Positions 2-18,205 of a stretch of 64,000 nucleotides of DNA are shown piece by piece. Below the pieces are notes generated by a model. That model was not told where the DNA came from. It did no database searches and saw nothing but the letters and a program-made list of their open reading frames with translations. Source of the DNA: Sphingomonas jejuensis (GTDB lineage: Bacteria; Pseudomonadota; Alphaproteobacteria; Sphingomonadales; Sphingomonadaceae); assembly GCF_011927695.1 (NCBI RefSeq), contig NZ_JAATJE010000001.1:744001-808000 (forward strand), written 5' to 3'. The position numbers were made by a program, and so were the translations under genes. Position 1 is the stretch's first letter; each line of letters begins with the position of its first letter.

Positions 2-1456
2 CAGGCGGGCATCCACGCCGGCGAGATCGACGGCAAGGACGCCGGCATGATGTTGCTGCGCGACATCGCGCTGCGCGGCAAGGACGGGTTGCTGGACGAC
101 GCCACCTTCGTCTTCGTGCCGGTCTTCAACGTCGACGGGCATGAGCGGTCATCGCGCTGGAGCCGTCCCAACCAGCGCGGCCCGCGCGAGCAGGGGTGGC
201 GAACCACGGCGCAGAACCTCAATCTCAATCGCGATTACCTGAAGGCGGACGCGCCCGAGATGCAGGCGATGATCGCCCTGATCCGCAGGCTTGATCCCGC
301 GCTCTACATCGACGTGCACGTCACCGACGGCATCGATTACCAGTATGACATCACCTACGGCTTCAACGGCTGGGGCGGGGAAGATGCCTATTCGCCCGCG
401 ATCGCCCGCTGGATGGACGGCCGCTTGCGCCCTGCCTTTGATCGGGCTCTCATACGGGGCGGGCACATTCCGGGGCCGCTGATCTTTGCGACCGACGACC
501 GCGATCCTGCCGTCGGCTTGTCCGCCGGACCATCGAGCGGACGCTTCTCGCAAGGCTATGGCGACCTGCGTCACATGCCCTCGATCCTGGTCGAGAACCA
601 CAGCCTGAAGCCTTACCGCCAGCGAGTGCTCGGCACCTATGTCTTGATGGAAGAAGCGCTGCGCCTGGTCGGCGCGGAGCGAAGCGCGGTGCAGCGCGCC
701 GTGGCGGAGGATCGAGCGGCCCGGCCGACAGAGATGTCGCACGGATGGCAGGCGGAAGAACAGCCAACCACCCGTCGCTGGCGAGGCGTTGCGTGGGAAC
801 GGTACCGTTCGGCCGCGTCCGGCCGCGACGAGATCCGGTGGCTTGGACAGGCTCGCGATGGTGAGATCGCGTCGACCGGGCAACGGTTCGCGCCGGCCGC
901 GCCGCTGCCGTCGGCCTGGTGGGTGCCGGCCACCAAGCCGGACCTGATCGCGGTGCTTCGCCTGCATGGCGTGGAGATGACGGAGGCCGCCGGGTCGACG
1001 GCGCTCGACCTCGACATGGTGCGGCTGCCGCTTGCGCGGCTGTCACAAAGGGCAAGCGAGGGGCGCGTGCCGATGAACGTCGGGGAGGGGCGCCACGAGC
1101 GACGCCGCGTCGTCATGCCGCCCGGGTCAGTTCGGGTGCCGGCGGACCAGCCGCTCGGCCTCGTCGCGGCCGCGCTGCTGGAGCCGGACAGCCGCGAGTC
1201 CCTCCTGGCGTGGGGAGCGTTTCCGGAGATCCTCGAGCGCACGGAGTATATCGAGGGCTATGCGATCGCGCCGCTGGCCGACCGCATGCTGGAAGCGGAT
1301 CCGGCGCTTCGCGCGGCGTTCGAGGAGCGGATTGCGGCGGATCCGGCCTTTGCAGCGGACGGCGACGCGCGGCTGGCCTGGTTCTATGCGCGCACGCCTT
1401 ACTACGACGACCGCTACCTTCTTTATCCGGTCGGCCGGGAGACTGTGGAACGCTGA
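2..1456 (+). CDS. M14-family zinc carboxypeptidase, 5' end outside the window
   Basis: The reading frame is open from base 2, so the gene starts upstream and only its last 484 residues are visible. The fragment opens with the M14 zinc motif HxxE (IHAGE, fragment His5 and Glu8). It continues with the substrate-binding NLNLNRDY stretch, a third zinc ligand in YIDVHVTDG, and a likely catalytic Glu in ILVENHS. This is the order expected of a carboxypeptidase A-like metallopeptidase, which trims C-terminal residues or peptidoglycan-type peptides. The signal peptide, if any, lies outside the window. The gene ends just before the repeat that precedes the next gene, so it is probably a separate transcription unit. 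The substrate is unknown. Confidence 0.85.
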   Translation, partial: QAGIHAGEIDGKDAGMMLLRDIALRGKDGLLDDATFVFVPVFNVDGHERSSRWSRPNQRGPREQGWRTTAQNLNLNRDYLKADAPEMQAMIALIRRLDPALYIDVHVTDGIDYQYDITYGFNGWGGEDAYSPAIARWMDGRLRPAFDRALIRGGHIPGPLIFATDDRDPAVGLSAGPSSGRFSQGYGDLRHMPSILVENHSLKPYRQRVLGTYVLMEEALRLVGAERSAVQRAVAEDRAARPTEMSHGWQAEEQPTTRRWRGVAWERYRSAASGRDEIRWLGQARDGEIASTGQRFAPAAPLPSAWWVPATKPDLIAVLRLHGVEMTEAAGSTALDLDMVRLPLARLSQRASEGRVPMNVGEGRHERRRVVMPPGSVRVPADQPLGLVAAALLEPDSRESLLAWGAFPEILERTEYIEGYAIAPLADRMLEADPALRAAFEERIAADPAFAADGDARLAWFYARTPYYDDRYLLYPVGRETVER

Positions 1457-1458
1457 GG

Positions 1459-1520
1459 TTGTCACAAAAGCGTCTCGCGGCTGTCTCGCATCTGTAACGG
1501 ATGCGTCATCAAACCATCAT
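1459..1520 (+). promoter_or_regulatory. Candidate extended Pho box (six heptamers, 11-bp phase)
   Basis: Six heptamers begin exactly 11 bp apart at 1459, 1470, 1481, 1492, 1503 and 1514: TTGTCAC, GCGTCTC, CTGTCTC, CTGTAAC, GCGTCAT and CCATCAT. Five of the six match the PhoB half-site CTGTCAT at five of seven positions. A 7+4 bp direct-repeat period is the hallmark of PhoB operators. A weak -10-like TAGGCG sits at 1531-1536, ten bases after the last unit, which is the usual PhoB spacing. A small hairpin (1546-1563) lies in the leader. PhoB control of the downstream lipoprotein and receptor is inferred. Confidence 0.55.
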
Positions 1521-1594
1521 CGCGCAGGCCTAGGCGCCCCTCAAGCCGGGGGCGGAACCCCGGTGCCGACTCCGTCGACCAAGGGGAATATTCG

Positions 1595-3163: not shown

Positions 3164-3180
3164 TCGGCCGCCATCTCTCG

Positions 3181-3214
3181 TCGGGGGTGGCGCGATAATC
3201 CGCGCCGCCCCCGA
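3181..3214 (+). terminator. Strong intergenic hairpin between lipoprotein and receptor genes
   Basis: A 14-bp stem with one G-T wobble closes a 6-nt loop (ATAATC, 3195-3200). The arms are 3181-3194 and 3201-3214, and only a short T-run follows. It sits 17 bp after the lipoprotein stop and about 30 bp before the receptor start on the same strand. It could act as a partial terminator or an mRNA-stabilising structure that gives more lipoprotein than receptor. Confidence 0.55.
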
Positions 3215-3245
3215 ATTTCGTATCGCTCTTGATTGGACACTCGCG

Positions 3246-6005
3246 ATGAAGACGCCGCTTGCACTTGGGGGAGCGCTGCTCGTCTCAACCTTCCTGACCG
3301 GCTCCGGCTGGGCGCAGACCAGCGGGTCAACCGCAACCGCGCAGACTCCGCCGTCGGCGCCTGCACAGTCGACGCCGAGCACGCCGGCCACCGGTGCGGA
3401 GGGAACGCCCCCGACCGCGTCGCCCACGACGCCGCCTGCGTCCGCAACCGATCCTGCCGCAGACGGCACGCAGGAGTCGGTCGACGTTTCCATCCCCGGC
3501 GCGGATGCCGGTGAGGAAATCGTCGTGATCGGCCGCAACATTCCGGAACCGGTGCGCAACACGGCAGCCGTCGTAAACGTGCTGTCCACGGCAGACATCG
3601 CGCGCACCGGCGAAGGCGACATTTCGGGCGCGCTGCAGCGCGTGACCGGCCTCAGCGTCGTGGGACAAGGCTTTGTCTATGTGCGCGGATTGGGCGATCG
3701 CTATTCGCTCTCTCTTCTCAACGGATCGCCGTTGCCGAGCCCCGAGCCGCTGCGTCGCGTTGTTCCACTCGATATCTTCCCGAGCCGCCTGATCGCCTCG
3801 GCGCTCGTCCAGAAGAGCTACTCGCCCAACTTCCCCGGCGAGTTCGGCGGTGGCGTGATCAACCTGACGACGGTCGCGACGCCCGACGAGACCTTCTACA
3901 GCGTGGGAGCCTCCATCGGCGGCGACACCGAGACGACGGCCAAGCTCGGCTACACCTATTACGGATCAGACCTCGACATCCTGGGCTATGACGACGGTGC
4001 GCGGCGCGTGCCTGGCTTCGTTCGCCGCGCCGGTGAAACCGGGCAGGGACTCTCGCCGCAGGAAGCGGCGCTGCTGACCAACGCTCCGACCACGCTTCTT
4101 CAGCGCAACTCGGACATCCCTGCAAACTTCGGTGCCGACTTCAGCGCGGGCACGCGCTTCGAAGGCGGCGACGTGACGGTCGGCGTGATCACCAGCCTCG
4201 GCTATTCGAACAGCTGGCAGGTGCGTGCGTCGGAGCAGCAGTCGACCGACGACAGTGCCGGCCTCATCATTCGTGACTTCGACACCGTGCTCACCGACAA
4301 CCGCATCCTCGTGAACGGCCTTGTTGGTCTGGGAGTCGAATTCGGTGAGCATCGCATCCGCCTGACCAACGTCTACATTCATGACACGCTGAAGCAGACT
4401 CGGCTGTCATCGGGCTTTGACGTCACAAACGTGGACTTCGACCCGAACTTTCCCGATCCGCTGTTGGAGCAGAACACCTTCTTCTTCGAGCGGCAGCTGT
4501 ACGACCTGCAGGCAGTCGGTGAGTTCGACTTTGGCGATCTCGATATCGACGTCCGCGGCACCTACGCGAACACCCGGCGCGAGTCGCCCTATGAGCGTGG
4601 CTTCGTCTACTCCTACGATCGTGAGGTCGGCGACTATGTGAATCGCCTCGCCGGCAGTTTCGAGGAAGCGTCGATCGCGTTCAGCGACCTGGACGAGGAT
4701 CTTTATTCCGGCGGTATCGACGCAACCTATGAGCTGCCGACAGCGCGTCCCTTCTCGCTCACCGCGGGATACGCGTACACAGACACCGACCGCACATCGA
4801 CGCGCTACGAATTCATCTATCGCGGCGTGAACGGCAGCGGCGTCAACAACACGGTCGGGCAGCTGCGCCCGGACTACCTGCTCTCCGACTATACGTTGCT
4901 GACCTACAATGTTGGCCTCATCAATCAGTCGACGAGCCAGGGTGCCGCCCGCTACGATGCCGGCCTGACGATCCACGCCGGATATGGTCAGGCGGAGATC
5001 GAGCTGTTCGACGGGGTGCGGGTCCAGGGCGGCGTCCGCTACGAGACCGCCGATCAGTTCGTGGATACCTTCAGCAACATCGCGCGCACCGAATTGTCCA
5101 ACGACTACTGGTTGCCTGCGCTGACGGTCACCTGGAACTTCGCAGAGGACATGCAGCTTCGCCTGCATGGCTCGAAGACGATCGCGCGTCCGCAGTTCCG
5201 CGAGCTGGCACCGCAGCTGTACCAGGACTTCACGTCCGACCGGCAGTTCATCGGGAACCCGTTCCTGCAGGACAGCGAGATCTACAACGCCGAAGCACGT
5301 TACGAATGGTTCTTCCGCCGTGGCGAGCGGATCACGCTGGCCGGCTTCTACAAGAAGCTCGAGAACCCGATCGAGCCGGTGGCGTTTGCGTTGCCGAACA
5401 GCCAGCTGCAGACCGGCTTCGCCAACGCGCCGGAGGCCGAGCTCTACGGTGCTGAAGTGGAGCTGCAGACCTATGTTCCGCTCAGCGGGATCAACAGCGA
5501 CTTCTTCACGACTCGTCGCCTGGTGCTGATCGGCAACTACACCTACTCACAGTCGGAACTGAAGACCGACGACAGCCTGGTGGCCGGCCCGATCTCCAGC
5601 GTGACGCCGGAACTGGTGCAATCCTCGCTGCTGTTCCGCGATGGTGCGCCGCTGACCGGCCAGTCGGATCATCTGGTGAACGTTCAGATCGGTATTGAGG
5701 ATACGGAGCGGCTGTCGCAGGCGACGCTGCTGTTCACCTATGCTAGCGACCGCGTCACCAATCGTGGACCGGTGGCGTTCGGAAACCGTTTGCCCGACAT
5801 CGTCGAGCGACCGGGGATCCGCCTGGACTTCGTTGCCCGCGAAGCTATCGAGCTTCTCGGCACGAACATGGAAGTCAAGTTCGAGGCACGAAACCTGACC
5901 GGCCAGGATTATCGCGAGTTCCAGCAGTTCGAGAACAGCGCGATCAACATCAACGCTTATGATCTTGGCACCAGCTTCTCGCTGGGCGTCAGCGTCGGCT
6001 TCTGA
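3246..6005 (+). CDS. TonB-dependent outer-membrane receptor
   Basis: This 919-residue protein has a signal peptide ending near GWAQT and then a long Thr/Pro/Ala-rich linker (about residues 25-80). A TonB-box-like EEIVVIG stretch precedes a plug domain with the typical VRGLGDRY, NGSPLPSPEP and GEFGGGVINL motifs. The remainder is a 22-strand-type beta-barrel ending in an aromatic residue (SVGF), as outer-membrane proteins do. Such receptors use the TonB/ExbBD energy chain to import scarce large solutes. The extended Ala/Pro/Thr linker is unusual. It shares the upstream region with a lipoprotein gene and probably belongs to the same phosphate-responsive unit; the ligand is not known. Confidence 0.9.
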   Translation: MKTPLALGGALLVSTFLTGSGWAQTSGSTATAQTPPSAPAQSTPSTPATGAEGTPPTASPTTPPASATDPAADGTQESVDVSIPGADAGEEIVVIGRNIPEPVRNTAAVVNVLSTADIARTGEGDISGALQRVTGLSVVGQGFVYVRGLGDRYSLSLLNGSPLPSPEPLRRVVPLDIFPSRLIASALVQKSYSPNFPGEFGGGVINLTTVATPDETFYSVGASIGGDTETTAKLGYTYYGSDLDILGYDDGARRVPGFVRRAGETGQGLSPQEAALLTNAPTTLLQRNSDIPANFGADFSAGTRFEGGDVTVGVITSLGYSNSWQVRASEQQSTDDSAGLIIRDFDTVLTDNRILVNGLVGLGVEFGEHRIRLTNVYIHDTLKQTRLSSGFDVTNVDFDPNFPDPLLEQNTFFFERQLYDLQAVGEFDFGDLDIDVRGTYANTRRESPYERGFVYSYDREVGDYVNRLAGSFEEASIAFSDLDEDLYSGGIDATYELPTARPFSLTAGYAYTDTDRTSTRYEFIYRGVNGSGVNNTVGQLRPDYLLSDYTLLTYNVGLINQSTSQGAARYDAGLTIHAGYGQAEIELFDGVRVQGGVRYETADQFVDTFSNIARTELSNDYWLPALTVTWNFAEDMQLRLHGSKTIARPQFRELAPQLYQDFTSDRQFIGNPFLQDSEIYNAEARYEWFFRRGERITLAGFYKKLENPIEPVAFALPNSQLQTGFANAPEAELYGAEVELQTYVPLSGINSDFFTTRRLVLIGNYTYSQSELKTDDSLVAGPISSVTPELVQSSLLFRDGAPLTGQSDHLVNVQIGIEDTERLSQATLLFTYASDRVTNRGPVAFGNRLPDIVERPGIRLDFVAREAIELLGTNMEVKFEARNLTGQDYREFQQFENSAININAYDLGTSFSLGVSVGF

Positions 6006-6013
6006 ATGGAGCG

Positions 6014-6043
6014 CCGGAGCCTGCCATTACTGGCAGGCTCCGG
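6014..6043. terminator. Bidirectional terminator hairpin
   Basis: A perfect 13-bp inverted repeat (6014-6026 and 6031-6043) with a TTAC loop lies in the 52-bp gap between the convergent receptor and oxygenase genes. It is symmetrical, so it can terminate transcription from both sides. Confidence 0.8.
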
Positions 6044-6057
6044 AAACGCGTACGAAA

Positions 6058-6696: not shown

Positions 6697-6767
6697 GTCG
6701 CATTCCTTCGTGGACGACGGATCCAGCAAGCCGCGACGACGCGCCTTCGTCAAGCGTTCAAAGCAGG

Positions 6768-6797
6768 TTGCGGCACAGGCGGGCTGACCGCTATGGT
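6768..6797 (+). promoter_or_regulatory. Possible promoter of the type II secretion operon
   Basis: TTGCGG (6768-6773) and TATGGT (6792-6797) are separated by 18 bp. They lie about 100 bp before gspC in the divergent gap. This is a pattern match only. Confidence 0.35.
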
Positions 6798-6899
6798 AAA
6801 TCGGTCGCTCCAGCGGGGGAGCGGCGCTGGCGGGGCATCGACGGCCTTCATGATGGAGCGGTGCCTGTTCATGGCGGCGGAACAGAAGGGGGTGCAGGC

Positions 6900-7766
6900 A
6901 TGCGCCTGACGCTCGACCCGCGGTTGCGCGCCTGGGCACGGCGGCTGCCTGTCACCAATTTCTACAGCCTCGCCGAGTTGCTCCTGCTGGTGGTGCTGGC
7001 GGTTCAATGCGCACGGCTGCTGTGGACCCTGGTGACGCCGGTCGGGCCGATCGGCGACTGGCGCCCGGCCAGCGGCGTTTCAGCCGGCGACCCGGCGCAG
7101 GCGGCGCGGCTGCGGACCTTTGATCCTTTCTTCAGGCTGGTCGACACGGGCACGGCGACCGTCTTGACCTCTCTGCAACTGGTTCTCTACGGCACCCGGG
7201 TTGATGAAGCCACGGGTCGCGGATCGGCCATCCTGGGTCCGCCCGAAGGTGTTCAGAACAGCTATGCAATCGGCGACGAGGTGGTCCCCGGCGTGATCCT
7301 GTCCGGCGTTGCTTTTGATCATGTCACGCTTACACGCGGCGGCGCGGAGGAAACCTTGTTCATCGACCAGTCCAACCCTGCCCCCGTGGCCGATGCGAGC
7401 GGCGCTCCTGCCGCCTTGGGAGCGGCACCCGCCGCGACGGTTCCGGCGGCTGCGCCAGTCGATCCGCGCCGCGCCGGCCCGCCGCCGCTGACCATCGAGA
7501 CGATCCGCCGCGATATCCGCTTCACCCCGCGTACGGTGGATGGCCAGCGCAGCGGCGTGGCGGTGACCGGAACCACGGGGTCACCGACGCTTGGCCAGGC
7601 CGGGCTCGTTGACGGCGACGTCATCCTGGAGGCGGGCGGCCGGCCTGTGAGCGGATCGGCCGACATTGAGGCGGCCGCCGCCGGCGTGCAGCCCGGCACC
7701 AGCCTTCCGCTGGTGGTGGAGCGCGGCGGGCAGCGCGTGCCGATCGCCGTGCCGGTGCGCCAGTGA
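6900..7766 (+). CDS. gspC: Type II secretion protein GspC
   Basis: The 288-residue protein is the inner-membrane clamp linking the secretin to the platform. A short cytoplasmic N-terminus is followed by one membrane helix (about residues 25-42), a homology region (about 60-160), an Ala/Pro-rich linker and a C-terminal PDZ domain (about 205-285). The chosen ATG has an AAGGGGG site 8 bases upstream and avoids a longer nonsense leader. It is the first gene of a 12-gene operon and overlaps gspD by one base (TGATG). Confidence 0.9.
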   Translation: MRLTLDPRLRAWARRLPVTNFYSLAELLLLVVLAVQCARLLWTLVTPVGPIGDWRPASGVSAGDPAQAARLRTFDPFFRLVDTGTATVLTSLQLVLYGTRVDEATGRGSAILGPPEGVQNSYAIGDEVVPGVILSGVAFDHVTLTRGGAEETLFIDQSNPAPVADASGAPAALGAAPAATVPAAAPVDPRRAGPPPLTIETIRRDIRFTPRTVDGQRSGVAVTGTTGSPTLGQAGLVDGDVILEAGGRPVSGSADIEAAAAGVQPGTSLPLVVERGGQRVPIAVPVRQ

Positions 7767-10072
7767 TGCGGGGTGCCCTCGGGATCGCGCTGGCACTGGC
7801 GCTCGCCGCGCCGGCCGTGGCGCAGCAGACGCTGAACGTCCGCGACGCGGATATCCGCGCCTTCATCCAGGATGCGGCGCGCGTCACCGGACGGGTGTTC
7901 ATCATCGATCAGCGGGTGCAGGGCCGCGTCTCCGTGACCAGCGATCGGCCGCTGTCGCGATCAGAGTATTTCGAGCTCTTCCTGGCGACCCTGCGGGCAA
8001 ACGGCCTGGTTGCGGTTCCGACGAACGGCGGGGCGTTCCGCATCCAGCCAGTCGAGGGTGCGGCGGCCACGGCCGGCCGGGTTGGGGGTGGCAGTACCGC
8101 CAACAGCTTCGTCACGGAAGTCTTTCGCCTGCGGTCCATCGACGCCACGCAGGCGGTGGAGACAATCCGACCGCTGGTGAGCCGCGAGGGATCGGTCACG
8201 GCGAACCGGGGCGCCAATTCGCTGGTGGTCGCCGACTTCGGCGACAATTTGCGCCGGATCCGGGAGCTGATCCGCCGCATCGACCAGGACGGCAGCGCAA
8301 CCCGCGTGGTGCCGCTGGAGAATGCGGGCGCGCGTGAGATCGCGACGTCGCTCAGCCAGCTGATCCAGGGTTCGGGCGGGCAGGGCGGAACCGGCCTGAC
8401 CGCGACGGTCGTTCCCGTCGACAGCGCCAATGCGATCGCGCTTCGCGGTGACGCCGCGACGGTGGCCCGCCTTGCCGAAACCGCGCGCGAGCTTGACCGA
8501 CAGGCCGAACAGGGCACCGAGATCCGGGTGATCTATCTGGAGCATGCGGATGCCGCGCAGCTGCTGCCCGTGCTGCAACAGCTGACCGGCCAGCCCGTGA
8601 CTCAGGCGTCCTCGGACACGGGCGCCCTGTCGGCGAGCCGTGGCGGCGTGTCGGGCAGCGGCACGGGCGGAGCCGGCGGCAGCATTCCGACCTCGACGAG
8701 TGTGGCGAGTGCGCCGGTCGCGGCAAGCGGCGGCAATCCAGGTGCCGCATCCGCGCTGGGCCTGCTTGGCCGCGGCCCGGCCATCGTGACGCGGTTCGAA
8801 GGTGCGAACGCGCTGATCGTCGCGGCACCCGGAGATACGCAGCGGCTGCTGGGCGAGGTGATCCGTCAGCTCGACGCCCGGCGCGAGCAGGTGCTGGTCG
8901 AAGCCATCGTCGTGGAGATCAGCGACACGGCGGCCCGGCGGCTGGGCGTGCAGTTCCTGCTGGGCGGCCTGCCGGGCAGCGGCCTGCCGTTCCTGGCGAC
9001 CAGCTATGCGAACTCGGCGCCGAACCTTCTGACGATCGCTGGTGCGGTGGCGGCCCGGTCGCTCAACACGACGACGACCGTGGTCAACGGAACCACGGTG
9101 ACCACGTCCACCGACAACGCCATCTCGAACCAGTTGGCGCAGGCGGCCGTCAACTCGATCCTCGGCAACCCGGCCGGGCTGATCGGGTTCGGCACGGAGA
9201 TCGGCCGTGACGGCATCTTCGGCACGATCATCAATGCCGTGCAATCCGACGGTCAGTCCAACCTTCTGTCGACCCCGTCGATCATGACGCTGGACAATCA
9301 GGAAGCACGGATCCTGGTGGGACAGGAGATTCCGGTGACAACTGGCGAGGCGCTTTCGAACAATTTCGACAATGCCTTCCGGACGGTGCAGCGGCAGAAT
9401 GTCGGCATCCAGCTGGAGGTCCGGCCGCAGATCAACGCCGGCGGCGAGATCAAGCTGGCGCTGCGGCAGGAGGTCAGCTCCATTTCCGGCGCGGTGTCGA
9501 ATGACAACAGCGACCTGATCCTCAACAAGCGTGAGATCGAGACCACGATCACCGTGCAGGACGGGCAGATCGCGGTGCTGGGCGGCCTTCTCGACGATAA
9601 CGAGCGCAACACGATCGAGAAGATCCCGCTTCTGGGCGACTTGCCCGCCATCGGCGCGCTGTTCAGATCGCGGGCGCGGCAGCGGGCAAAGACCAACCTG
9701 ATGGTCTTCATCCGTCCCACGATCATCCGTTCACCCAATGACCAGCAGGTGCTGACCGAGCAGCGTTACGGCTATGTTCGTCGCCAGCAGATGGAGCAGC
9801 AGCCGAACGTCGAGCCCAGCCTGGATGAACTGGTGCGCGATTACATGGGGGCAGCGCCGCCGGTTCCGCGCGAGCCGCTGCCGGGCAGCTACCCGCCGGC
9901 TGCGCCGCCTGCCACTGCGCTGCCGCCGCCGCTGCTGACGCCCGAGGGCGAGGCGGCCCTGCCAGAGACGGTCGTTCCGCGTCCGCTGTCCGAGCAGCAG
10001 CCCCGCGTGATCGTGCCGGAGGTGCGCAGCACACGCCAAGTCGTGCGCCCGATCACGGGTGATCCGCAATGA
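7766..10072 (+). CDS. gspD: Type II secretion secretin GspD
   Basis: This is the outer-membrane secretin of 768 residues. A signal peptide ends near AVAQQ. The N0 domain follows (LNVRDADIRAFIQ), then N1-N3 repeats containing the conserved RLRSIDA.QAVETIRPLV-type segment. The secretin core contains VEAIVVEIS, LLSTPSIMTLDN and GGLLDD, and ends with KTNLMVFIRPTI. A Ser/Gly/Thr-rich insert (about residues 285-330) interrupts N3. The C-terminus is a Pro-rich tail (about 700-768), which may be the docking segment for an outer-membrane pilotin, although no pilotin gene is nearby. The TGA of gspC overlaps the ATG, and the ATGA junction with gspE implies translational coupling. Confidence 0.95.
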   Translation: MRGALGIALALALAAPAVAQQTLNVRDADIRAFIQDAARVTGRVFIIDQRVQGRVSVTSDRPLSRSEYFELFLATLRANGLVAVPTNGGAFRIQPVEGAAATAGRVGGGSTANSFVTEVFRLRSIDATQAVETIRPLVSREGSVTANRGANSLVVADFGDNLRRIRELIRRIDQDGSATRVVPLENAGAREIATSLSQLIQGSGGQGGTGLTATVVPVDSANAIALRGDAATVARLAETARELDRQAEQGTEIRVIYLEHADAAQLLPVLQQLTGQPVTQASSDTGALSASRGGVSGSGTGGAGGSIPTSTSVASAPVAASGGNPGAASALGLLGRGPAIVTRFEGANALIVAAPGDTQRLLGEVIRQLDARREQVLVEAIVVEISDTAARRLGVQFLLGGLPGSGLPFLATSYANSAPNLLTIAGAVAARSLNTTTTVVNGTTVTTSTDNAISNQLAQAAVNSILGNPAGLIGFGTEIGRDGIFGTIINAVQSDGQSNLLSTPSIMTLDNQEARILVGQEIPVTTGEALSNNFDNAFRTVQRQNVGIQLEVRPQINAGGEIKLALRQEVSSISGAVSNDNSDLILNKREIETTITVQDGQIAVLGGLLDDNERNTIEKIPLLGDLPAIGALFRSRARQRAKTNLMVFIRPTIIRSPNDQQVLTEQRYGYVRRQQMEQQPNVEPSLDELVRDYMGAAPPVPREPLPGSYPPAAPPATALPPPLLTPEGEAALPETVVPRPLSEQQPRVIVPEVRSTRQVVRPITGDPQ

Positions 10073-11619
10073 GGATCGGCCGCGGCGAGACGATCGTCGC
10101 GGAGCCGACGATCCCGGATGCAATGCCGATGCCGACGCCGGCATCGGCGACGCCGGTGATCCCCTATGCCTTCGCCCGTAAATACGGCGTCGTCATTTCC
10201 GGAGCTGGTGGCGACCGTCCAACGATCGCGCTTCGGGATGGCGCCGACCCGCGCGTCCTGATCGAGCTCAGGCGCCATTTCGGCGGCGGCTTTGCCGTCG
10301 ACCGGGTAACGCAGGTTGCCTTCGACCGGCTGCTGTCCGATCAATATGCGATGACCGGCCAGGCGACGGCCGACGCAGCTGGATCGCTCGACGCCGACGA
10401 TCTTGCGCTCATCGCCGGTGACATCCCGACCGCCGAGGATCTTCTGGAGAGCGCGGACGATGCCCCCGCCATCCGCCTCATCAACGGCATCATCGCCGAT
10501 GCCGCTCGCCAGGGTGTGTCCGACATCCATGTCGAGCCTTATGAGACGGGCCTAGTGGTGCGGATGCGGATCGACGGCGTTCTGCGCGAGACGCTGCGCA
10601 TGCCGCCGCACGCGGCGCCGGTGCTCGTCAGCCGCATCAAGGTGATGAGCCGACTGGACATCGCGGAGCGACGTGTCCCGCAGGACGGGCGCATGGGGTT
10701 GTCGCTTGGTGGGAAGCTCCTGGACGTTCGTGTCTCAACACTGCCGAGCAGGGCGGGCGAGCGCGTCGTCATGCGCATTCTCGACAAGGAGAATGCGGGC
10801 ATCGGGTTCGACACGCTCGGCCTTACGCCCGCGACGACGGAGGTGCTGGGCGACGCGCTGGGCGAGCCCAACGGCATCATTCTCGTCACCGGCCCGACCG
10901 GGTCGGGTAAGACCACGACGCTCTACGCAGGGCTGCGGCTGTTGAACGATGGCAGCCGCAACATTCTGACGGTCGAGGATCCGGTCGAATATGCAGTGGA
11001 CGGCGTCGGCCAGACGCAGGTCAACGCAAAGGTGGGCATGGACTTCGCCACCGGCCTTCGAGCGATCCTTCGCCAGGATCCCGACGTCGTGATGGTGGGC
11101 GAGATCCGCGACCGGGAAACGGCCGAGATCGCGGTTCAGGCGTCGCTGACCGGGCATCTGGTGCTGTCGACGGTCCACACCAACGATGCGCTGGGTGCGA
11201 TCACGCGGCTTCGCGATATGAAGGTGGAGCCCTTTCTGCTCGCGTCGACGCTGCGCGCGGTGCTGGCGCAGCGGCTGGTCCGGCGATTGTGCCCGACCTG
11301 CCGCCGGCCTCAGCCCGCCGGCGAGCGCGCCGCGGCGCTGCTGGGATTGCGGCCGGATGAGACGGTGTACGAGCCGGGCGGCTGTGTCGAGTGCAACGGC
11401 ACGGGCTTCAAGGGTCGTATCGGCGTGTATGAGGCCGTTCGGATTGACGACACGCTGCGCCGGCTGATCAATGACGGCGCGGACGAAAGCGCGATGGCGC
11501 GTCATGCCTTTGCCCGCACGCCGACACTGACGCAGGCGGCCCGGCAGATGGTGCGCGACGGCACCACCACGCCGGAGGAAGCGGTCCGCGTGTCCCGCCG
11601 CGAAGAGATCGATGGCTGA
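10069..11619 (+). CDS. gspE: Type II secretion ATPase GspE
   Basis: This 516-residue cytoplasmic ATPase powers pseudopilus assembly. It has an N-terminal GspE/PilB domain, a Walker A loop (GPTGSGKTT), an Asp box and a Walker B segment (VMVGEIRD). The His-box region reads LVLSTVHTND. Near the C-terminus lies a four-cysteine zinc module (CPTC and CVEC) characteristic of GspE proteins. It overlaps gspD by 4 nt and gspF by 8 nt. Confidence 0.97.
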   Translation: MRIGRGETIVAEPTIPDAMPMPTPASATPVIPYAFARKYGVVISGAGGDRPTIALRDGADPRVLIELRRHFGGGFAVDRVTQVAFDRLLSDQYAMTGQATADAAGSLDADDLALIAGDIPTAEDLLESADDAPAIRLINGIIADAARQGVSDIHVEPYETGLVVRMRIDGVLRETLRMPPHAAPVLVSRIKVMSRLDIAERRVPQDGRMGLSLGGKLLDVRVSTLPSRAGERVVMRILDKENAGIGFDTLGLTPATTEVLGDALGEPNGIILVTGPTGSGKTTTLYAGLRLLNDGSRNILTVEDPVEYAVDGVGQTQVNAKVGMDFATGLRAILRQDPDVVMVGEIRDRETAEIAVQASLTGHLVLSTVHTNDALGAITRLRDMKVEPFLLASTLRAVLAQRLVRRLCPTCRRPQPAGERAAALLGLRPDETVYEPGGCVECNGTGFKGRIGVYEAVRIDDTLRRLINDGADESAMARHAFARTPTLTQAARQMVRDGTTTPEEAVRVSRREEIDG

Positions 11620-12832
11620 CTTCGACTATCTCGCGCTCGACGTGGCCGGGCGGGAACGACGGGGGCAGGTGCAGGCCAGCTCGCTTGACGACGCGCGCAC
11701 GCGGTTGGCGCGGCGGCGGCTCTACGTCGTCGAGGTTGCGCCGGGAACGGGTGAGCGGCCGCAGCGGGGGCCGGCGCTGGTCGGTCGTGGCCGTGGACGG
11801 ATGGGATCGAAAGCGCTGACGCTGTTTACGCGGCAGCTTGCGACGCTGGCACAGGTCAGCCCGCTTGAGGAATCATTGCGCACGATCAGCCGGCAGACCG
11901 AGCAGGCGCATGTCCGGCGGGTCGTTGGTGCGGTGCATGCGGGCGTTGTGGAGGGAAGGCGGCTGTCGGACGCCATGGCGCGCGAAGCCAAGAGCTTCCC
12001 GCCGCTCTACCGCGCGATGGTGAATGCGGGCGAGAGCTCCGGCACGCTTCCGGCGATCCTGGAGCGACTGGCCGAGTTGCAGGAACGTCAGGCGCAGATC
12101 CGGGGCAAGGTGCTGACGGCGATCGCCTACCCGACCGTGCTGGCGGCGGTGGCGATGCTCGTCGTCATCTCGCTTATGGTGTTCGTGGTGCCCCGGGTCG
12201 TCGAACAGTTCGAGGATTTCGGGCAGACGCTGCCGCTGCTCACCCGGATCGTGATCGGCATCTCCGACCTGCTGGTCGACTGGTGGTGGGCGATCCTGCT
12301 GGTGGTGGGCGGCATCGTGCTCCTGACATGGCAGGCGTTGAAGACGCCGGCGACGCGGCTGCGGTTCGATGCGGCGCTGCTGAGGCTGCCGCTGATCGGG
12401 CGGCTGACCCGCGACCTTCACGCGGCGCGGATGTCGCGGACGTTGTCGACGATGGTGGCGTCGCGGCTGCCGCTGATCGACGGGCTGGCGCTGACCGTTG
12501 GGACGATCAACAACCGCGCGCTGCGGCTGGCATCCGAGGAAATCGTGGAGGCGATCCGCGGCGGCGGCAGCCTGTCGGCGGCGCTACGGCGGGCGGCGGT
12601 GTTCCCGCCGCTGCTGGTCTACCTGGCGGCGTCGGGCGAGAGCAGCGGGCGGCTGGACATCATGCTGGAGCGGGCGGCCGATTATCTGGAGCGCGAGTTC
12701 GACGGGTTCACCGCAACCGCGCTGTCGCTGCTGGAGCCGGCGATCATCGTCGTGATGGGCGGTATTGTCGCGGCGATCGTGCTATCGATCCTCCTCCCCA
12801 TCCTTCAATTGCAGACGCTGGCTGGCGCTTGA
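11612..12832 (+). CDS. gspF: Type II secretion inner-membrane platform protein GspF
   Basis: At 406 residues this is the usual size for GspF. Two T2SSF cytoplasmic domains are each followed by membrane helices (about residues 170-195 and 215-240), and there is a last helix near the C-terminus (about 375-400). It forms the membrane platform contacted by GspE and GspL. The start codon lies inside the last codons of gspE. Confidence 0.95.
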   Translation: MADFDYLALDVAGRERRGQVQASSLDDARTRLARRRLYVVEVAPGTGERPQRGPALVGRGRGRMGSKALTLFTRQLATLAQVSPLEESLRTISRQTEQAHVRRVVGAVHAGVVEGRRLSDAMAREAKSFPPLYRAMVNAGESSGTLPAILERLAELQERQAQIRGKVLTAIAYPTVLAAVAMLVVISLMVFVVPRVVEQFEDFGQTLPLLTRIVIGISDLLVDWWWAILLVVGGIVLLTWQALKTPATRLRFDAALLRLPLIGRLTRDLHAARMSRTLSTMVASRLPLIDGLALTVGTINNRALRLASEEIVEAIRGGGSLSAALRRAAVFPPLLVYLAASGESSGRLDIMLERAADYLEREFDGFTATALSLLEPAIIVVMGGIVAAIVLSILLPILQLQTLAGA

Positions 12833-12840
12833 GGACCAAC

Positions 12841-13308
12841 TTGACACTCAGAGAGCATGAAACGGGCACTTCGTTGCCGAAGCGTAACGATGGCGAGGAG
12901 GGCTTCACGCTGGTGGAGCTGATGGTGGTGATCGTCATCATCGGCCTGCTTGCCACCATCGTGGTGGTGAACGTGCTGCCGTCGCTGGACCGCGCGAACG
13001 ACACGCGGGTGCGCAGCGACATCCAGACGCTGGAATCCGCGCTGGAAATGTACCGGCTGGACAACCTGACCTATCCGTCGACGACCGAGGGGCTGCAGGC
13101 GCTGACCACGCCGCCGCCGACCTTGTCGCAGCCGGCGCGGTACCGGCCCGGCGGCTATGTCCGCCGGCTGGAGGAGGACCCCTGGGGCCGGCCGTACCTG
13201 TATTCGCAGCCCGGGCGGAACGGGCGCCCGTTCGACGTCTTCACGCTGGGCGCGGACGGCGCCGAGGGCGGCGAGGGCGAAAATGCCGATATCGGCACCT
13301 GGCAGTAG
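12841..13308 (+). CDS. gspG: Major pseudopilin GspG
   Basis: The 155-residue pseudopilin carries the prepilin signature EEG|FTLVELM with Gly21 at the cleavage site and Glu at +5, followed by a hydrophobic helix. The C-terminal half holds the GspG signature (YPSTTEGLQAL and DPWGRPYLY). The TTG at 12841 is chosen because GAGGA ends five bases upstream and no in-frame ATG precedes the signature. The 21-residue leader is long for this family. It starts eight bases after gspF ends. Confidence 0.9.
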   Translation: MTLREHETGTSLPKRNDGEEGFTLVELMVVIVIIGLLATIVVVNVLPSLDRANDTRVRSDIQTLESALEMYRLDNLTYPSTTEGLQALTTPPPTLSQPARYRPGGYVRRLEEDPWGRPYLYSQPGRNGRPFDVFTLGADGAEGGEGENADIGTWQ

Positions 13309-13765
13309 GCGCCGAGGGCGGCGGCGGGGCGAGGAGGGCTTCACCCTCGTCGAGCTGATGGTGGCGATCGTCATCATCGGCCTGCTGTCGGCCACCGTGG
13401 TGCTGGCGATCCCCGACCCGCGCGGGCGCGTGATCGACGAGGCGGAAAGCTTTGCCGCGCGCACGGCGGCTGCCCGCGACGCTGCCATCATCGAGGCGCG
13501 TGCGACCGCCGTGCGCGTGACGCCCGCCGGATATGCATTCGACCGCGAGGCCGACGGCGAGTGGGCGCCCATGCAGGAGCCGCCCTTCCAGGCGCGGGCC
13601 TGGAGCGGGGAGGTGCGGGCCGACCTGGGGCCGGAAGGCGGCGCGCGGATCGCGTTCGACCCGACCGGCACGGTCAGCGGGCCGATCAGCTTTGCGCTGG
13701 TGCGCGAGGATGCGCGGGTCGGCGTGGCGGTGGGCGCGGACGGCCGGGTGCGCGTGGGCGGATGA
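13283..13765 (+). CDS. gspH: Minor pseudopilin GspH
   Basis: This 160-residue protein has the prepilin cleavage motif EEG|FTLVELM about 18 residues from an ATG that lies inside the end of gspG (26-nt overlap, with a GAGG site upstream). The region after the helix is the typical GspH globular domain. It is a minor pseudopilin near the pilus tip. Its residues around the cleavage site nearly duplicate those of GspG, which helps explain the similar DNA at 12897 and 13333. Confidence 0.87.
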   Translation: MPISAPGSRRRGRRRGEEGFTLVELMVAIVIIGLLSATVVLAIPDPRGRVIDEAESFAARTAAARDAAIIEARATAVRVTPAGYAFDREADGEWAPMQEPPFQARAWSGEVRADLGPEGGARIAFDPTGTVSGPISFALVREDARVGVAVGADGRVRVGG

Positions 13766-14244
13766 TGCGTCGCGCCCCCTGCCATCGGGAACGGCCCGCC
13801 ATGTCCGGGCGCGCCGCCGGCGGCAACGGCGGGCAGTGCCGACAGCGGGCGGAGCAGGGCTTCACGCTGATCGAGATGCTGGTCGCGCTGGCGGTGTTCA
13901 GCCTGGCGGCGCTGGCGCTGCTGCGGCTGGAGACGACCACGCTGGCGAATGCGGCGGTGCTGGAGACACGGGCGCTGGGCCAGGTGGTCGCGCGCAACGT
14001 GGCGGTGGAGACGCTGGCCGACCCGATGCCGCCCACGCTGGGCGTCAGCAGCGGCCAGGAAGTGAATGGTGGCGCGACCTGGAACTGGACGCGCAACACG
14101 TCCAACACCGACGACACCAGCATCCTGCGCATCGACATCGCCGTGACGGGTCCGACCGGCGAACCGGCGGCGGTGCTGACCGTGGTGCGCCCGGCCGAAT
14201 ACCGGCTGGACGCGGCCGCGACGATCACGGCGCCGGGATCATGA
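13762..14244 (+). CDS. gspI: Minor pseudopilin GspI
   Basis: The 160-residue protein has the motif EQG|FTLIEML followed by a hydrophobic helix, and a short globular C-terminal domain. The start overlaps the gspH stop (ATGA). An alternative ATG at 13801 would give a shorter leader of about 20 residues. It belongs to the I-J-K tip complex of the pseudopilus. Confidence 0.88.
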   Translation: MMRRAPCHRERPAMSGRAAGGNGGQCRQRAEQGFTLIEMLVALAVFSLAALALLRLETTTLANAAVLETRALGQVVARNVAVETLADPMPPTLGVSSGQEVNGGATWNWTRNTSNTDDTSILRIDIAVTGPTGEPAAVLTVVRPAEYRLDAAATITAPGS

Positions 14245-14837
14245 CCGGTCCGCGCGAGCACGGCTTCACGCTCGTCGAGCTGCTGGTGTCGCTGGTGATC
14301 TTCGCCGTGCTGAGCGCGGCGGGGGTGTCGCTGCTGCAGATGAGCGCCCGATCGCAGGCGGCGGTGGGCGAGCGGCTGGAGGAAGTGGCCGCGTGGCGGC
14401 GCATCTCGTCCCTGATCGCGAGCGACCTGTCCGCCGCCGTGCCGCGGACCACGCGCGAGGTGGCCGGCACGCTGCGCCCGGCCTTTGTCGGCAATGCCGT
14501 GAACGACGGTCCGCTGCTGGTGGGCTTCGTCCGCAGTGGTTGGAGCAACCTGGACCAGGCGCCGCGCGCCAGCCTGCAGAAGGTCGATTACCGGTTCGAG
14601 CAGGGGCGGCTGGAACGTGTCGCCTATCCCGCGCTGGACGGGGCGGAGCCCGAGGTGCCGGCGGTGCTGGCGGACAATATCGAGCGCTTTTCGATCCGGT
14701 ACCGCGCGCGCGACGGGTGGCGCAGCCAGTGGGAAGCGCTGGGCGCCGAGCCGATGCCGTCGGCCATCGAGATCACCATCGGACAGGCGGGACGCGCGGA
14801 CGTGCGCCAGCTGTTCCTGGTCGGGGCGGGGCGATGA
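14241..14837 (+). CDS. gspJ: Minor pseudopilin GspJ
   Basis: This 198-residue protein begins with a seven-residue leader and the cleavage motif EHG|FTLVELL. It contains a hydrophobic helix and the conserved late segment (VADNIERF-type, here VLADNIERFSIRYR) of GspJ. The ATGA overlaps with both neighbours indicate coupling. It partners GspI and GspK at the tip. Confidence 0.92.
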   Translation: MTGPREHGFTLVELLVSLVIFAVLSAAGVSLLQMSARSQAAVGERLEEVAAWRRISSLIASDLSAAVPRTTREVAGTLRPAFVGNAVNDGPLLVGFVRSGWSNLDQAPRASLQKVDYRFEQGRLERVAYPALDGAEPEVPAVLADNIERFSIRYRARDGWRSQWEALGAEPMPSAIEITIGQAGRADVRQLFLVGAGR

Positions 14838-15832
14838 GGCCGAACATGCCCGTGCCGCATGGCGAACGCGGCGCCGCGCTGCTGACCGTGCTGCTGCTGG
14901 TGGCGGTGATGGCGGTGATCGCGGCGTCGTCGCTGGAAAAGCTGCGGCTCGCCACCCGATTGTCGGGCAACAGCTTCGCCGTCGACCAGGCGCGCGCCTA
15001 TGCCAGCGCCGCCGAAACCATCGCGGCGGCGCGCGCCGAGCGGCTGATCGAACGGTCGCTGGCGCGCACCACGTTGCAGGGCGGATGGAACGGCCGCGCG
15101 ATCGGCGTGCCGGTGCCGGGCGGCAGCGCATCGGTGATCGTGCGGGACGGGGGCAACTGCTTCAACCTCAACAGCGTCGTGCAGGGCGAGAGCCTGTTCC
15201 AGCTGACCAGCCGCATCGCCGGGATCCGGCAGTTCGTGGGGCTGATGCAGGCGCTGCAGATCCCGCAGGCGCCGGCGGAGCGCATCGCGGCGGCCACCGC
15301 CGACTGGATCGACAGCGACGTGATCCCTCAGCCGAACGGCGCGGAGGATGATTTCTATGGCGGGGTGCAGCCGCAGCGCCGCGCGGCAAACATGCTGATG
15401 AGCGACCCGAGCGAGCTGCGGCAGGTGGCCGGCATGACGCCGGAGATCTACGCCCGGCTGCGCCCCTTCATCTGCACGCTGCCGACGCCCGACCTGTCGC
15501 CGATCAACGTCAACACGGTGCTGCCCGAACAGGCGCCGCTGATCGCCATGCTGCTGCCGCGGAACTTGACCCCCGACCGCGCGCGAACTTTGCTCGCGGA
15601 GCGCCCCGCGACCGGCTATGGATCGGCGCAGGAATTCCTGAACCGGGCGGCGCTCAGCGTCGGGGCACAGGACGATGGGCAATTGGGGCGGCAGTTGAAG
15701 GTCCGAACAACCTGGTTTTCGCTGGAAACCCGCGTCGAGCTGGGCGGCACGCGCGTGACGCAGCGGGCGATGATCGACGCGCGGACCACCCCCGTGCGCG
15801 TCACCGCGCACCTGGCGGGGCGCGGCGACTGA
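14834..15832 (+). CDS. gspK: Minor pseudopilin GspK
   Basis: At 332 residues this is the large tip pseudopilin. The leader ends ERG|AALLTVLLL. It lacks the Glu at +5 found in the other four pseudopilins, which is normal for GspK and consistent with a tip position. The body contains the helix-rich segment with DWIDSD and the late INVNTVLPEQAPL segment, both typical of the family. Confidence 0.92.
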   Translation: MRPNMPVPHGERGAALLTVLLLVAVMAVIAASSLEKLRLATRLSGNSFAVDQARAYASAAETIAAARAERLIERSLARTTLQGGWNGRAIGVPVPGGSASVIVRDGGNCFNLNSVVQGESLFQLTSRIAGIRQFVGLMQALQIPQAPAERIAAATADWIDSDVIPQPNGAEDDFYGGVQPQRRAANMLMSDPSELRQVAGMTPEIYARLRPFICTLPTPDLSPINVNTVLPEQAPLIAMLLPRNLTPDRARTLLAERPATGYGSAQEFLNRAALSVGAQDDGQLGRQLKVRTTWFSLETRVELGGTRVTQRAMIDARTTPVRVTAHLAGRGD

Positions 15833-17013
15833 TGGCGACGATCGCACCGCCCCTGCCGCGCGTGGCGCCGACGCGCACCCGCACCCGGGCGCGATCGCAG
15901 GCGGCGGGCACCGTGATCGCCTTTCTGCCGACCGACGACGCCGCGCCGATCGCGTGGCAGCGTTTCGAGGGCGGGGTGCCGGCGGCATCCGGGCCGAGCC
16001 TGGACACGCTGGGCGAGGCGATCGTCGACCTGGGCACCGAGCGCGTGGTGGCGGTGGCGCCGGCGGCCGACGTGACGCTGCACTGGGCGGAGCTGCCCGG
16101 GCTGGCGACGGCGCAGGCACGCGCGGCCGCCCGGCTGATGGTGGCCGAACAGAGCCTGGTGTCGGGCGACGCGCTGCATGTCGCGGTGGGCGACGAGACG
16201 GAGGACGGCGAGCGCCCGGTGGCGGCGGTGGCGACGGAGCGGATGTCGACCTGGCTGGCGCGGCTGGCCGGTGCCGGCATCGATCCGTCGGCGATCGTCG
16301 CCGCGCCGCTGCTGCTGCCGCTGGCGGATGAAGGCTTCACGCGCGCGGCGGTGGGCGGCGAGACGGTCTATCGCGGGCGCAGCAGCGGTTTTGCCGACGA
16401 TCCCGTGCTGACGCCGATCCTGGTGGAAGCGCGGCCGGTGACGCCGCTGACCGGGCGCGCGCTGGACGAGGCGGTGCTGGCGGGAGCGGAGACGCCGGTC
16501 CTGGACCTGCGGCAGGGTGCCTTTGCGCGCAGCCGGCGCGGGCGGCTCGACTGGGCGCTGGTGCGGCGGCTGGGCTGGCTGGCGCTGGCGATCGCGGCGG
16601 TGTCGCTCCTGATCGGGCTGGTGTCGATCATGCGGCTGAGCTTTGCCGCCGACGCGGCCGAGCGGGAGGCGGCGGAGATCGCCCGCAGCGCCCTGCCGCG
16701 CGGCACGGCCGCGGGCGCCGACCCGGTGCTGGCGCTGGACCGCGCGCTGGCGGGCGAGCGCGGCGGCGGGCTGGGCTTCACCACGACGGCGGGCGTGCTG
16801 TTCGGCGCGGTGCAGGCGGTGCCGGGCGTCGAGCTGACCGGCATCGATTTCGGCGCGGACGGCGTGATGCGCGCCGCGCTGCGCGCACCGGGCGCGCCGG
16901 AGGTAGAGGCGATCATCGAGCGGGTCGAGGCGAGCGGGCTGGAGGCGACGCCCAGTCCGTTCCAGGCGAGCGAAGGCCGGGTGTCGGGCGAGCTGAGGAT
17001 CGCACTGCCATGA
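15832..17013 (+). CDS. gspL: Type II secretion protein GspL
   Basis: This is a 393-residue bitopic protein. An actin-like cytoplasmic domain (about residues 25-235) recruits GspE. One membrane helix (about 248-266) is followed by a periplasmic ferredoxin-like domain. The ATG shares a base with the gspK stop, and gspM follows with an ATGA overlap. Confidence 0.88.
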   Translation: MATIAPPLPRVAPTRTRTRARSQAAGTVIAFLPTDDAAPIAWQRFEGGVPAASGPSLDTLGEAIVDLGTERVVAVAPAADVTLHWAELPGLATAQARAAARLMVAEQSLVSGDALHVAVGDETEDGERPVAAVATERMSTWLARLAGAGIDPSAIVAAPLLLPLADEGFTRAAVGGETVYRGRSSGFADDPVLTPILVEARPVTPLTGRALDEAVLAGAETPVLDLRQGAFARSRRGRLDWALVRRLGWLALAIAAVSLLIGLVSIMRLSFAADAAEREAAEIARSALPRGTAAGADPVLALDRALAGERGGGLGFTTTAGVLFGAVQAVPGVELTGIDFGADGVMRAALRAPGAPEVEAIIERVEASGLEATPSPFQASEGRVSGELRIALP

Positions 17014-17492
17014 CCGAGCGGTTCCAGGCCTGGTGGCGGCTGCGATCTGTGCGCGAGCAGCGGCTGTTGCTGGTGATGGCCGGGTTGTTCCTGGTGGTGT
17101 TCCTGTGGATCGGCATCATCGGGCCGATCGCCGACGCGCGGGCCGGCGCCTGGTCGCGGCACGAGGAAGCGGTGGCGACGCTGGGACGCGTGCGCGCCGA
17201 CGCGGCCGCGCTGCGGGCGATCGCGCGGCGCCCGGCCGCCCCGCTCGATGCGCCGCTGGCGACCGTTGTCAGCAACGCGGCATCGGCGGCGGGTTTCGCC
17301 AGCGCGGGCGTTTCCGCGCAGGGCACGGCGCGGGTGACGGTATCGATCGCCTCCGCGCGGCCGGGCGCGCTGTTCCCGCTGATCGCCGATCTGGAGCGGC
17401 GCGGCATCCTGGTGGAGCGCATCGCCGTGCGGGCCAATGCCGACCAGACGCTTGGCGCGGACATGACGCTGATCGGAAGGGGCATCAGATGA
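17010..17492 (+). CDS. gspM: Type II secretion protein GspM
   Basis: The 160-residue protein has a short cytoplasmic N-terminus, one membrane helix (about residues 20-40) and a periplasmic ferredoxin-like domain, matching GspM, which stabilises GspL. It sits between gspL and gspN and overlaps both. Confidence 0.85.
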   Translation: MTERFQAWWRLRSVREQRLLLVMAGLFLVVFLWIGIIGPIADARAGAWSRHEEAVATLGRVRADAAALRAIARRPAAPLDAPLATVVSNAASAAGFASAGVSAQGTARVTVSIASARPGALFPLIADLERRGILVERIAVRANADQTLGADMTLIGRGIR

Positions 17493-18205
17493 GGATCAGG
17501 CTGCCGGTCGGGCGCAGCGTGCTGTTCGGCATCGCCTTTGTGGTGGCGCTGGTCCTGTTCCTGCCGATGCGGCTGGGGCTGGGGATGTTCGGCGTCGCCG
17601 ACGAAGGGCTGACCGCGCGCGGTGCCGATGGCACGATCTGGACCGGGCGGCTGAGCGAGGCGCAGCTGGGCGGGATCAGCGTGGGCGACGTGGAGGCCGG
17701 GCTGTCGCCGTTCCAGCTGCTGGTCGGGCGCGCGCGGGTGAACGTGTCGCGGGAGGCCGGCGGCACCGACATGCTGCACGGGGCGGTCGGCGTGACGCGC
17801 AATTCAACGGGAATCGACGACCTGACTGCGACGCTGCCGGTGGGCACGCGCTTTGCCCCGCTGCCGATCAGCGCGCTGGGCTTTACCGATTTCACCGTGC
17901 GCTTCGTGGGCGACGCGTGCCGCAATGCCGAGGGCGCGGTGCGCGCGGTGATGAGCGGCGAGGTGGCCGGCATCAACCTGGCGCAGGGCTTCACCGGGGC
18001 GGCGCGGTGCGACGGCGCGGCGCTGCTGCTGCCGCTCGCCAGCCAGTCGGGCCAGGAGCGGCTGGACGTCCGCATCGACGTCGGCGGGGCGTGGCGCGCG
18101 TCCGTGGTGGTGGCGAGCACCGACCCGGCGGTCGTGGCGCAGCTGACCGCCGCGGGCTTCGCGCCGGGAGAGGGCGGTTACCGGCTGGAGATCGGCGGCC
18201 GCTGA
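17489..18205 (+). CDS. gspN: Type II secretion protein GspN
   Basis: The 238-residue protein has one N-terminal membrane helix (about residues 9-30) followed by a periplasmic domain with the GspN pattern (ADGTIWTGRL near residue 50, and two cysteines about 40 residues apart). GspN is present only in a subset of type II systems. It is the last gene of the operon, and no prepilin peptidase gene follows. Confidence 0.85.
   Translation: MRIRLPVGRSVLFGIAFVVALVLFLPMRLGLGMFGVADEGLTARGADGTIWTGRLSEAQLGGISVGDVEAGLSPFQLLVGRARVNVSREAGGTDMLHGAVGVTRNSTGIDDLTATLPVGTRFAPLPISALGFTDFTVRFVGDACRNAEGAVRAVMSGEVAGINLAQGFTGAARCDGAALLLPLASQSGQERLDVRIDVGGAWRASVVVASTDPAVVAQLTAAGFAPGEGGYRLEIGGR

Follow-up and report, generated by a model that had tools for sequence, protein, structure and literature searches.

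A six-unit Pho-box-like array, with related arrays at orthologues, at an ElpS-type lipoprotein and TonB-dependent receptor locus of sphingomonads

The window, which is the whole 64,000-nucleotide stretch of Sphingomonas jejuensis DNA analyzed here, contains a short direct repeat between the stop codon of an M14 peptidase-like ORF (..1456) and the ATG, at 1595, of a lipoprotein gene that is followed by a gene for a TonB-dependent receptor (Table 1). Among the titles listed in literature searches, none deals with the lipoprotein promoter in sphingomonads.

Table 1. Features of the locus, numbered from the first letter of the window
Feature	Position	Strand	Description
Six-unit 11-bp direct-repeat array (three tandem Pho boxes)	1459..1524	+	top array of the window; recurs in orthologues
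Array unit 1	1459		TTGTCAC-AAAA
Array unit 2	1470		GCGTCTC-GCGG
Array unit 3	1481		CTGTCTC-GCAT
Array unit 4	1492		CTGTAAC-GGAT
Array unit 5	1503		GCGTCAT-CAAA
Array unit 6	1514		CCATCAT-CGCG
-10-like CCTAG	1529..1533	+	fixed spacing from last unit; 77 aligned promoters
ElpS-type lipoprotein, 522 aa	1595..3163	+	lipobox LAAC, C-GADDVASPG motif, Pro/Thr linker, predicted right-handed beta-helix
Intergenic GC-rich stem-loop (lipoprotein/receptor)	3181..3214	+	14-bp arms, one G-U pair
TonB-dependent receptor, CC0171-like	3246..6005	+	plug and barrel; PF00593/PF07715
2OG-Fe(II) oxygenase gene between receptor and T2SS	6058-6939	-	PF13640
Type II secretion (T2SS) genes gspC-gspN	6900..18205	+	Pfam matches above curated cut-off
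gsp starts, C to H	C 6900, D 7763, E 10069, F 11612, G about 12874, H ORF from 13157
gsp starts, I to N	I 13801, J 14241, K 14834, L 15832, M 17010, N 17489

The array and its recurrence upstream of orthologues

The array has the organization of a Pho box, with direct repeats of seven conserved and four less conserved bases and a CTGTCAT-like heptamer, at an exact 11-bp period; the four spacer bases of the last unit end at 1524. Five of the units differ from CTGTCAT at two positions and GCGTCTC differs at four, and the log-odds exceed 2 in five of the six, GCGTCTC reaching 1.7. With a hand-set weight matrix built around CTGTCAT/C, the whole array scores 34.6, no other array on either strand of the 64-kb window scores above 17, and the maximum in 20 first-order Markov sequences of 64 kb, scanned on one strand, is 15.3. 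Six CTGTCAT-like heptamers at an exact 11-bp period, as described by the first-pass annotation, are therefore confirmed, in register from 1459. Tandem Repeats Finder reports only a weak 2.2-copy 11-bp repeat (1472-1495, score 34) because the copies have diverged. The single units are degenerate; the run as a whole is exceptional.

Of 149 genomes drawn from the family, 107 have a match to the lipoprotein, a weak one in two cases. The promoter set comprised 81 loci, one per genome, namely the window and the 80 other genomes with the highest scores; 24 weaker full matches and second copies were excluded. The genomes G008, G066, and G087 each have two full-length lipoprotein genes. A weight-matrix scan of orthologous upstream regions, the check that had been proposed for the repeat, was run on 300 bp (shorter at contig ends), and the best 11-bp array in each region was compared with 300 dinucleotide shuffles. 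With the window included, arrays are found at p < 0.01 in 55 of the 81 regions and at p < 0.05 in 69, and 12 have no array at p < 0.05 against these shuffles. Long arrays of period 11 occur in 40/81 regions, and every other period between 7 and 16 yields at most 6/81. An unbroken run of at least six units is seen in only 20 of the 81. A genome-wide pattern scan allowing three mismatches was noisy, with 181+194 matches versus 134+133 in the control.

The array is followed by a -10-like element, CCTAG, whose second C lies 16 bp downstream of the first base of the last heptamer. Among the 77 of 81 promoters that could be aligned, T and A at 1531-1532 have frequencies of 0.99 and 1.00 and the flanking C, C, and G of 0.75-0.81, and the last unit together with the -10 element, at fixed spacing, was found in 76 of 81. 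A -10-like element at fixed spacing, as had been suggested for a PhoB promoter, was borne out, CCTAG being locked to the array.

To reduce circularity, the phase of the remaining units was assessed in promoters for which only the last unit and the -10 element served as the anchor, with a log-odds threshold of 2. In-phase units 2-6 are above threshold in 27, 27, 26, 16, and 16 of 76 promoters; out of phase, the means are 2-6% and the maxima 8-12%. Unit 7 is above threshold in 10/76 (13%), barely over the off-phase maximum of 12%, and units 8-10 in 4/76, 4/75, and 0/75. No above-threshold unit among units 2-6 is present in 24 of the 76 anchored promoters, versus 54-68 of 76 when the phase is shifted. 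As in-phase enrichment extends to unit 6 and fades at unit 7, the enriched footprint is about six half-sites, or three Pho boxes by the definition given in PMC4415409, although much of the family has retained fewer. In three genomes (L077, L087, and L088), a near-palindromic sequence, TGTAATATTAC, stands, upstream of the lipoprotein gene, where the second-last unit would otherwise lie.

The layout of the array varies with the presence of the T2SS. Contiguous runs of at least five units, counted with no p filter, are present in 24/51 T2SS-bearing and 1/30 T2SS-lacking genomes (Fisher p 1.6e-5). On a quick lipoprotein tree, five independent pairs of array and T2SS states could be drawn on supported branches, of which on average 2.2 are concordant, 0 opposed, and 2.8 undecided (median sign-test p 0.5), and long arrays occur on either side of the midpoint root. 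A causal link between array and T2SS was set aside, the association being mostly shared descent and largely one clade without T2SS, and is kept only as a lead. It is a tentative proposal, and one less likely than not, that the six-site array is a selected, length-defined operator on which three cooperative PhoB dimers would form a steep, high-amplitude switch distinct from that of pstS (two to four sites), and that its layout evolves with the deployment of the lipoprotein, contiguous mostly in T2SS-bearing lineages and altered in T2SS-lacking ones. In five genomes with no T2SS detected (L132, L126, L134, L135, and L147), a final CTGTCAC/T-like unit follows TGCAA-rich sequence upstream of the lipoprotein gene, and the further units upstream are mostly 1-3 bp out of phase.

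PhoB and the comparison with pstS and phoX

One regulator in the genome scores above the cut-off of the PhoB model, and its gene lies ~5 kb from pstS in one cluster. The motif is also found at other Pho genes of the same genome, with three units preceding its pstS and four preceding its phoX, each at the control floor. In relatives, represented by the 30 pstS loci with the highest scores, an array at p < 0.02 lies upstream of pstS in 28 of 30, with 2-6 units and a median of 3. Runs of at least six units are present in 20/60 significant lipoprotein promoters versus 2/28 significant pstS promoters (p 0.008, uncorrected for descent). The first-pass view of two units as the usual number oversimplifies, the median at pstS being 3, although six or more are uncommon there.

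The phoX promoters of relatives are significant in only 8 of 30 cases; these regions were measured from the Pfam match rather than from the start codon, and many reach into coding sequence. The genome's own phoX, which has a four-unit array when measured from its start, does not score in the set built as for relatives (L169). Scans of the upstream regions of the nearby phoD-like gene, the receptor gene, and gspC found no array.

Three further observations concern the surroundings and possible other targets. A PhoD-family phosphatase gene (L071:4813-6375, minus strand; PF09423, E 7e-94) lies ~4 kb upstream of the array. At L067:1994-2011, a one-mismatch Pho-box pair (CTGTCTCAAAACTGTCAC) precedes a decarboxylase-like gene (Orn_Arg_deC) and may mark a further Pho target. 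At L069:2831-2859, two overlapping Pho-box-like matches lie where an ORF of 127 residues begins; this ORF has a signal-like sequence and belongs to no Pfam family.

In Caulobacter crescentus, the elpS promoter is reported to be induced by phosphate starvation in a PhoB-dependent manner (PMC5172544). T2SS and TonB receptors are reported to belong to the PhoB regulon (PMC11208175). PhoB is the likely regulator of the array, since the motif is shared with the genome's own pstS and phoX and with pstS in 28 of 30 relatives. The proposal of a PhoB-type promoter is supported by this motif sharing, by the arrays at orthologues, and by the PhoB-dependent promoter of the Caulobacter orthologue (PMC5172544). 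Judged by sequence comparison, the array is a genuine operator of the PhoB type that recurs across the family, and the phosphate-starvation locus at which it lies is of a kind already known.

The lipoprotein, its receptor, and the secretion genes

The lipobox cysteine of the lipoprotein, Cys19, is invariant in 24 of 24 aligned members and is followed by Gly in 23 of them and by Asp-Gly in one. The residues after the cysteine fit CG[APG][DEQ][DEGN] in 69/81 sequences, SPG occurs within a few residues in 78/81, and a Pro/Thr-rich stretch is common after this motif. Eleven short N-terminal matches to the lipoprotein are mostly other lipoproteins with CGG-type starts and Pro/Thr-rich stretches.

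The AlphaFold2 model of the lipoprotein is a right-handed beta-helix with a mean pLDDT of 87.8 and a pTM of 0.86, in which the first 35 residues are mostly below pLDDT 50. The top VIA-align match is a phage tailspike (Z 23.6, rmsd 3.2, 283 aligned), and an alginate epimerase/lyase also aligns (Z 22.5, rmsd 3.9, 284 aligned). These matches to the model show a right-handed beta-helix but no function. Foldseek with the same model returned no match below E 0.001; Pfam has no family for the lipoprotein, and a loose cut-off applied to the 24 members named nothing; and in a sequence search of the PDB the best match (E 0.27) is over the linker, with nothing naming the lipoprotein. Nine acidic residues are invariant in the 24 sequences (D278, D279, E282, D300, D301, D304, D306, E333, and D335), a cluster that may bind metal or substrate.

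Relatives of the lipoprotein are found in Caulobacter endophyticus (L256; 48% identity over residues 20-503) and Phenylobacterium (L249; 46%). Both loci have the order lipoprotein-receptor-gspC-gspD and an array of three units, the middle one weak, at the same distance to TAG (p 0.007 and 0.003, respectively).

The receptor gene is on the same strand and less than 1200 bp downstream of the lipoprotein gene in 76/78 and 74/74 loci of two sets that overlap in species, counted where there is more than 3 kb of room. Of the uptake system that had been suggested for the two proteins, the pairing of the lipoprotein with a TonB receptor is supported, as anatomy only. Within limited flanks, oxygenase-like genes are present in 12/80 and 43/80 related loci. 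In 49 of 105 genomes that carry the lipoprotein, none of GspC, GspG, and GspN was detected, although a few of these genomes are incomplete and detection is limited; therefore, on gene content, the lipoprotein-receptor pair is the core unit. This occurrence of the pair with no detectable T2SS agrees with reports from Caulobacter, in which ElpS reaches the cell surface without the T2SS, the T2SS being needed for its release (PMC2996285).

Export of lipoproteins that depends on GspN has been demonstrated in Acinetobacter (PMC12802150), and both C-GADD after the lipobox and a GspN gene are present in the window. A GspN route is possible for the lipoprotein here, but would hardly be general for its family. 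GspN was considered as the exporter and set aside: its gene is present in 48/105 genomes with the lipoprotein and 9/44 without it, a moderate difference (p 0.005, uncorrected for descent), and the post-cysteine motif persists in 28 of the 30 genomes read in which GspC, GspG, and GspN are undetected.

Between the lipoprotein and receptor genes, a hairpin recurs, with a stem score of at least 10 in 58/157 loci compared with 0.2% of shuffles. The stem scores 11 in the window, 9 in Caulobacter L256, and 14 in Phenylobacterium L249. The hairpin is claimed on these stem scores rather than on folding energies, for which z-scores are modest (mean -1.61; 32/142 below -2; window -1.1). A T run follows some of the hairpins and is absent after others, including that of the window, so that the element may be either a terminator or a stabilizer; an Rfam search of 1400-6100 named no RNA. 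A likely role of the hairpin is to allow the lipoprotein to be made in excess over the receptor. Such uncoupling would fit the differing expression reported for CC0171 and elpS, CC0171 being expressed in both rich and poor medium (data not shown in that study; PMC2996285); the receptor may therefore not depend on the array promoter alone.

Proposed mechanism, alternatives, and known systems

Taken together, the observations make it probable that a PhoB-activated promoter drives an ElpS-type lipoprotein that works with the receptor in phosphorus acquisition. The array would be a promoter activated by phosphorylated PhoB, with six half-sites in three tandem Pho boxes accommodating what would be three PhoB dimers just upstream of the -10 element. 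Upon phosphate starvation, it would recruit RNA polymerase, and the lipoprotein gene would be transcribed, with the intergenic hairpin presumably yielding lipoprotein in excess over receptor. The lipoprotein, a predicted beta-helix on a Pro/Thr-rich tether, would be exported to the outer surface; in Caulobacter, both the surface location and the T2SS-dependent release of ElpS have been demonstrated (PMC2996285). There it would act with the adjoining receptor, and with secreted phosphatases, in acquiring phosphorus from what may be a large or complex source. The constitutive expression of CC0171 (PMC2996285) fits poorly with one co-regulated operon.

Binding to tandem direct repeats is a common trait of OmpR/PhoB-family regulators, and six further full-length members of the family in the genome match the PhoB model below its cut-off, so that another response regulator of this family could in principle read the array. 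This is improbable given that the same heptamer and period precede the genome's own pstS and phoX and pstS in 28 of 30 relatives, and that the promoter of the Caulobacter orthologue is PhoB-dependent (PMC5172544). That the repeat is a chance or compositional periodicity, as its degenerate units and the Tandem Repeats Finder score of only 34 might suggest, has a negligible probability in view of the Markov, shuffle, off-phase, and period controls and of a -10 element in register in 77 aligned promoters.

The function of the lipoprotein leaves more room. It could be an enzyme that acts on a phosphorylated or capping glycan as a lyase, epimerase, or hydrolase, instead of being the binding partner of the receptor: many of the structural matches are glycan-active beta-helix proteins such as the tailspike and the alginate epimerase/lyase, the nine invariant acidic residues lie between 278 and 335, and the Flavobacterium relatives have been likened to polygalacturonase (PMC8115612). 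The sequence search of the PDB, whose best match covers the linker, and Foldseek, with nothing below E 0.001, speak against an enzyme, and the beta-helix fold equally serves binders and adhesins, leaving this a serious but minority reading. Somewhat less likely still is a lipoprotein that is chiefly a T2SS/GspN substrate to which the receptor is incidental. The gspC-N genes, GspN included, do lie downstream of the pair in the window, and the post-cysteine GADD resembles GspN sorting motifs (PMC12802150). Against this, GspC, GspG, and GspN are undetected in 49 of 105 lipoprotein-bearing genomes, with the motif kept in 28 of 30 read; the receptor follows the lipoprotein in 76 of the 78 loci when the whole set is counted; and surface location in Caulobacter is T2SS-independent (PMC2996285). 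A PhoB-activated lipoprotein and receptor acting together in phosphorus acquisition is the reading preferred here.

The locus thus represents a widespread, little-studied lipoprotein-TonB receptor pair that is tied to the phosphate response in sphingomonads. The family offers a natural series of PhoB operators of differing length at one gene, at which PhoB cooperativity would be measurable, and the suggested independence of the pair from the neighboring T2SS narrows the search for the route that takes the lipoprotein to the surface. New here are the six-unit footprint, the comparison with pstS, the pair in genomes with no detectable T2SS, and the recurrent hairpin; the gene pair itself was already known as a phosphate-starvation system first described in Caulobacter.

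The closest known system is the phosphate-starvation-induced locus of Caulobacter crescentus that comprises ElpS (CC0170, CCNA_00169), CC0171, and the T2SS (PMC2996285), and a similar gene arrangement was reported for Sphingomonas alaskensis by Le Blastier and colleagues (PMC2996285, 2010). The first-pass annotation knew of no described function for the pair, which is contradicted by this precedent and by relatives in Flavobacterium (PMC8115612). Similar to the ElpS locus, the window has the order lipoprotein-TonB receptor-gspC-N, a lipobox, and a PhoB-type promoter (PMC2996285, PMC5172544); the assignment as ElpS-type follows from this gene order, the lipobox LAAC, and a sequence relationship drawn through the Caulobacter endophyticus (L256) and Phenylobacterium sequences rather than C. 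crescentus ElpS itself. In Caulobacter, ElpS itself showed no phosphatase activity; the phosphatase activity of the supernatant rose when ElpS was overproduced, and deletion of elpS changed nothing (PMC2996285). The differences are the 2OG-Fe(II) oxygenase gene between the receptor and the T2SS in the window, and six contiguous Pho units in place of the three, one of them weak, of Caulobacter endophyticus.

In Flavobacterium johnsoniae, a member of the Bacteroidota, the lipoproteins FI, FII, and FIII are induced by low phosphate, and FI and FII are clustered with a low-phosphate-induced TonB transporter; FI-FIII are reported to be 31-36% identical (50-54% coverage) to the Caulobacter protein (PMC8115612). 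As in SusCD and PusCD, of which PusCD is induced by phosphate depletion (PMC8115612), a surface lipoprotein and a TonB transporter are encoded together. Unlike in those systems, the partner in the window is a predicted beta-helix with no Pfam family, where absence from the list of structural matches does not exclude membership in the SusD family. At the level of the promoter, E. coli ugp and the complex operators of Streptomyces likewise have several 7+4 direct repeats upstream of phosphate-regulated promoters (PMC4415409), whereas the array of the window has six units at an exact period and a fixed -10 element, with in-phase enrichment over six units across the family at one gene.
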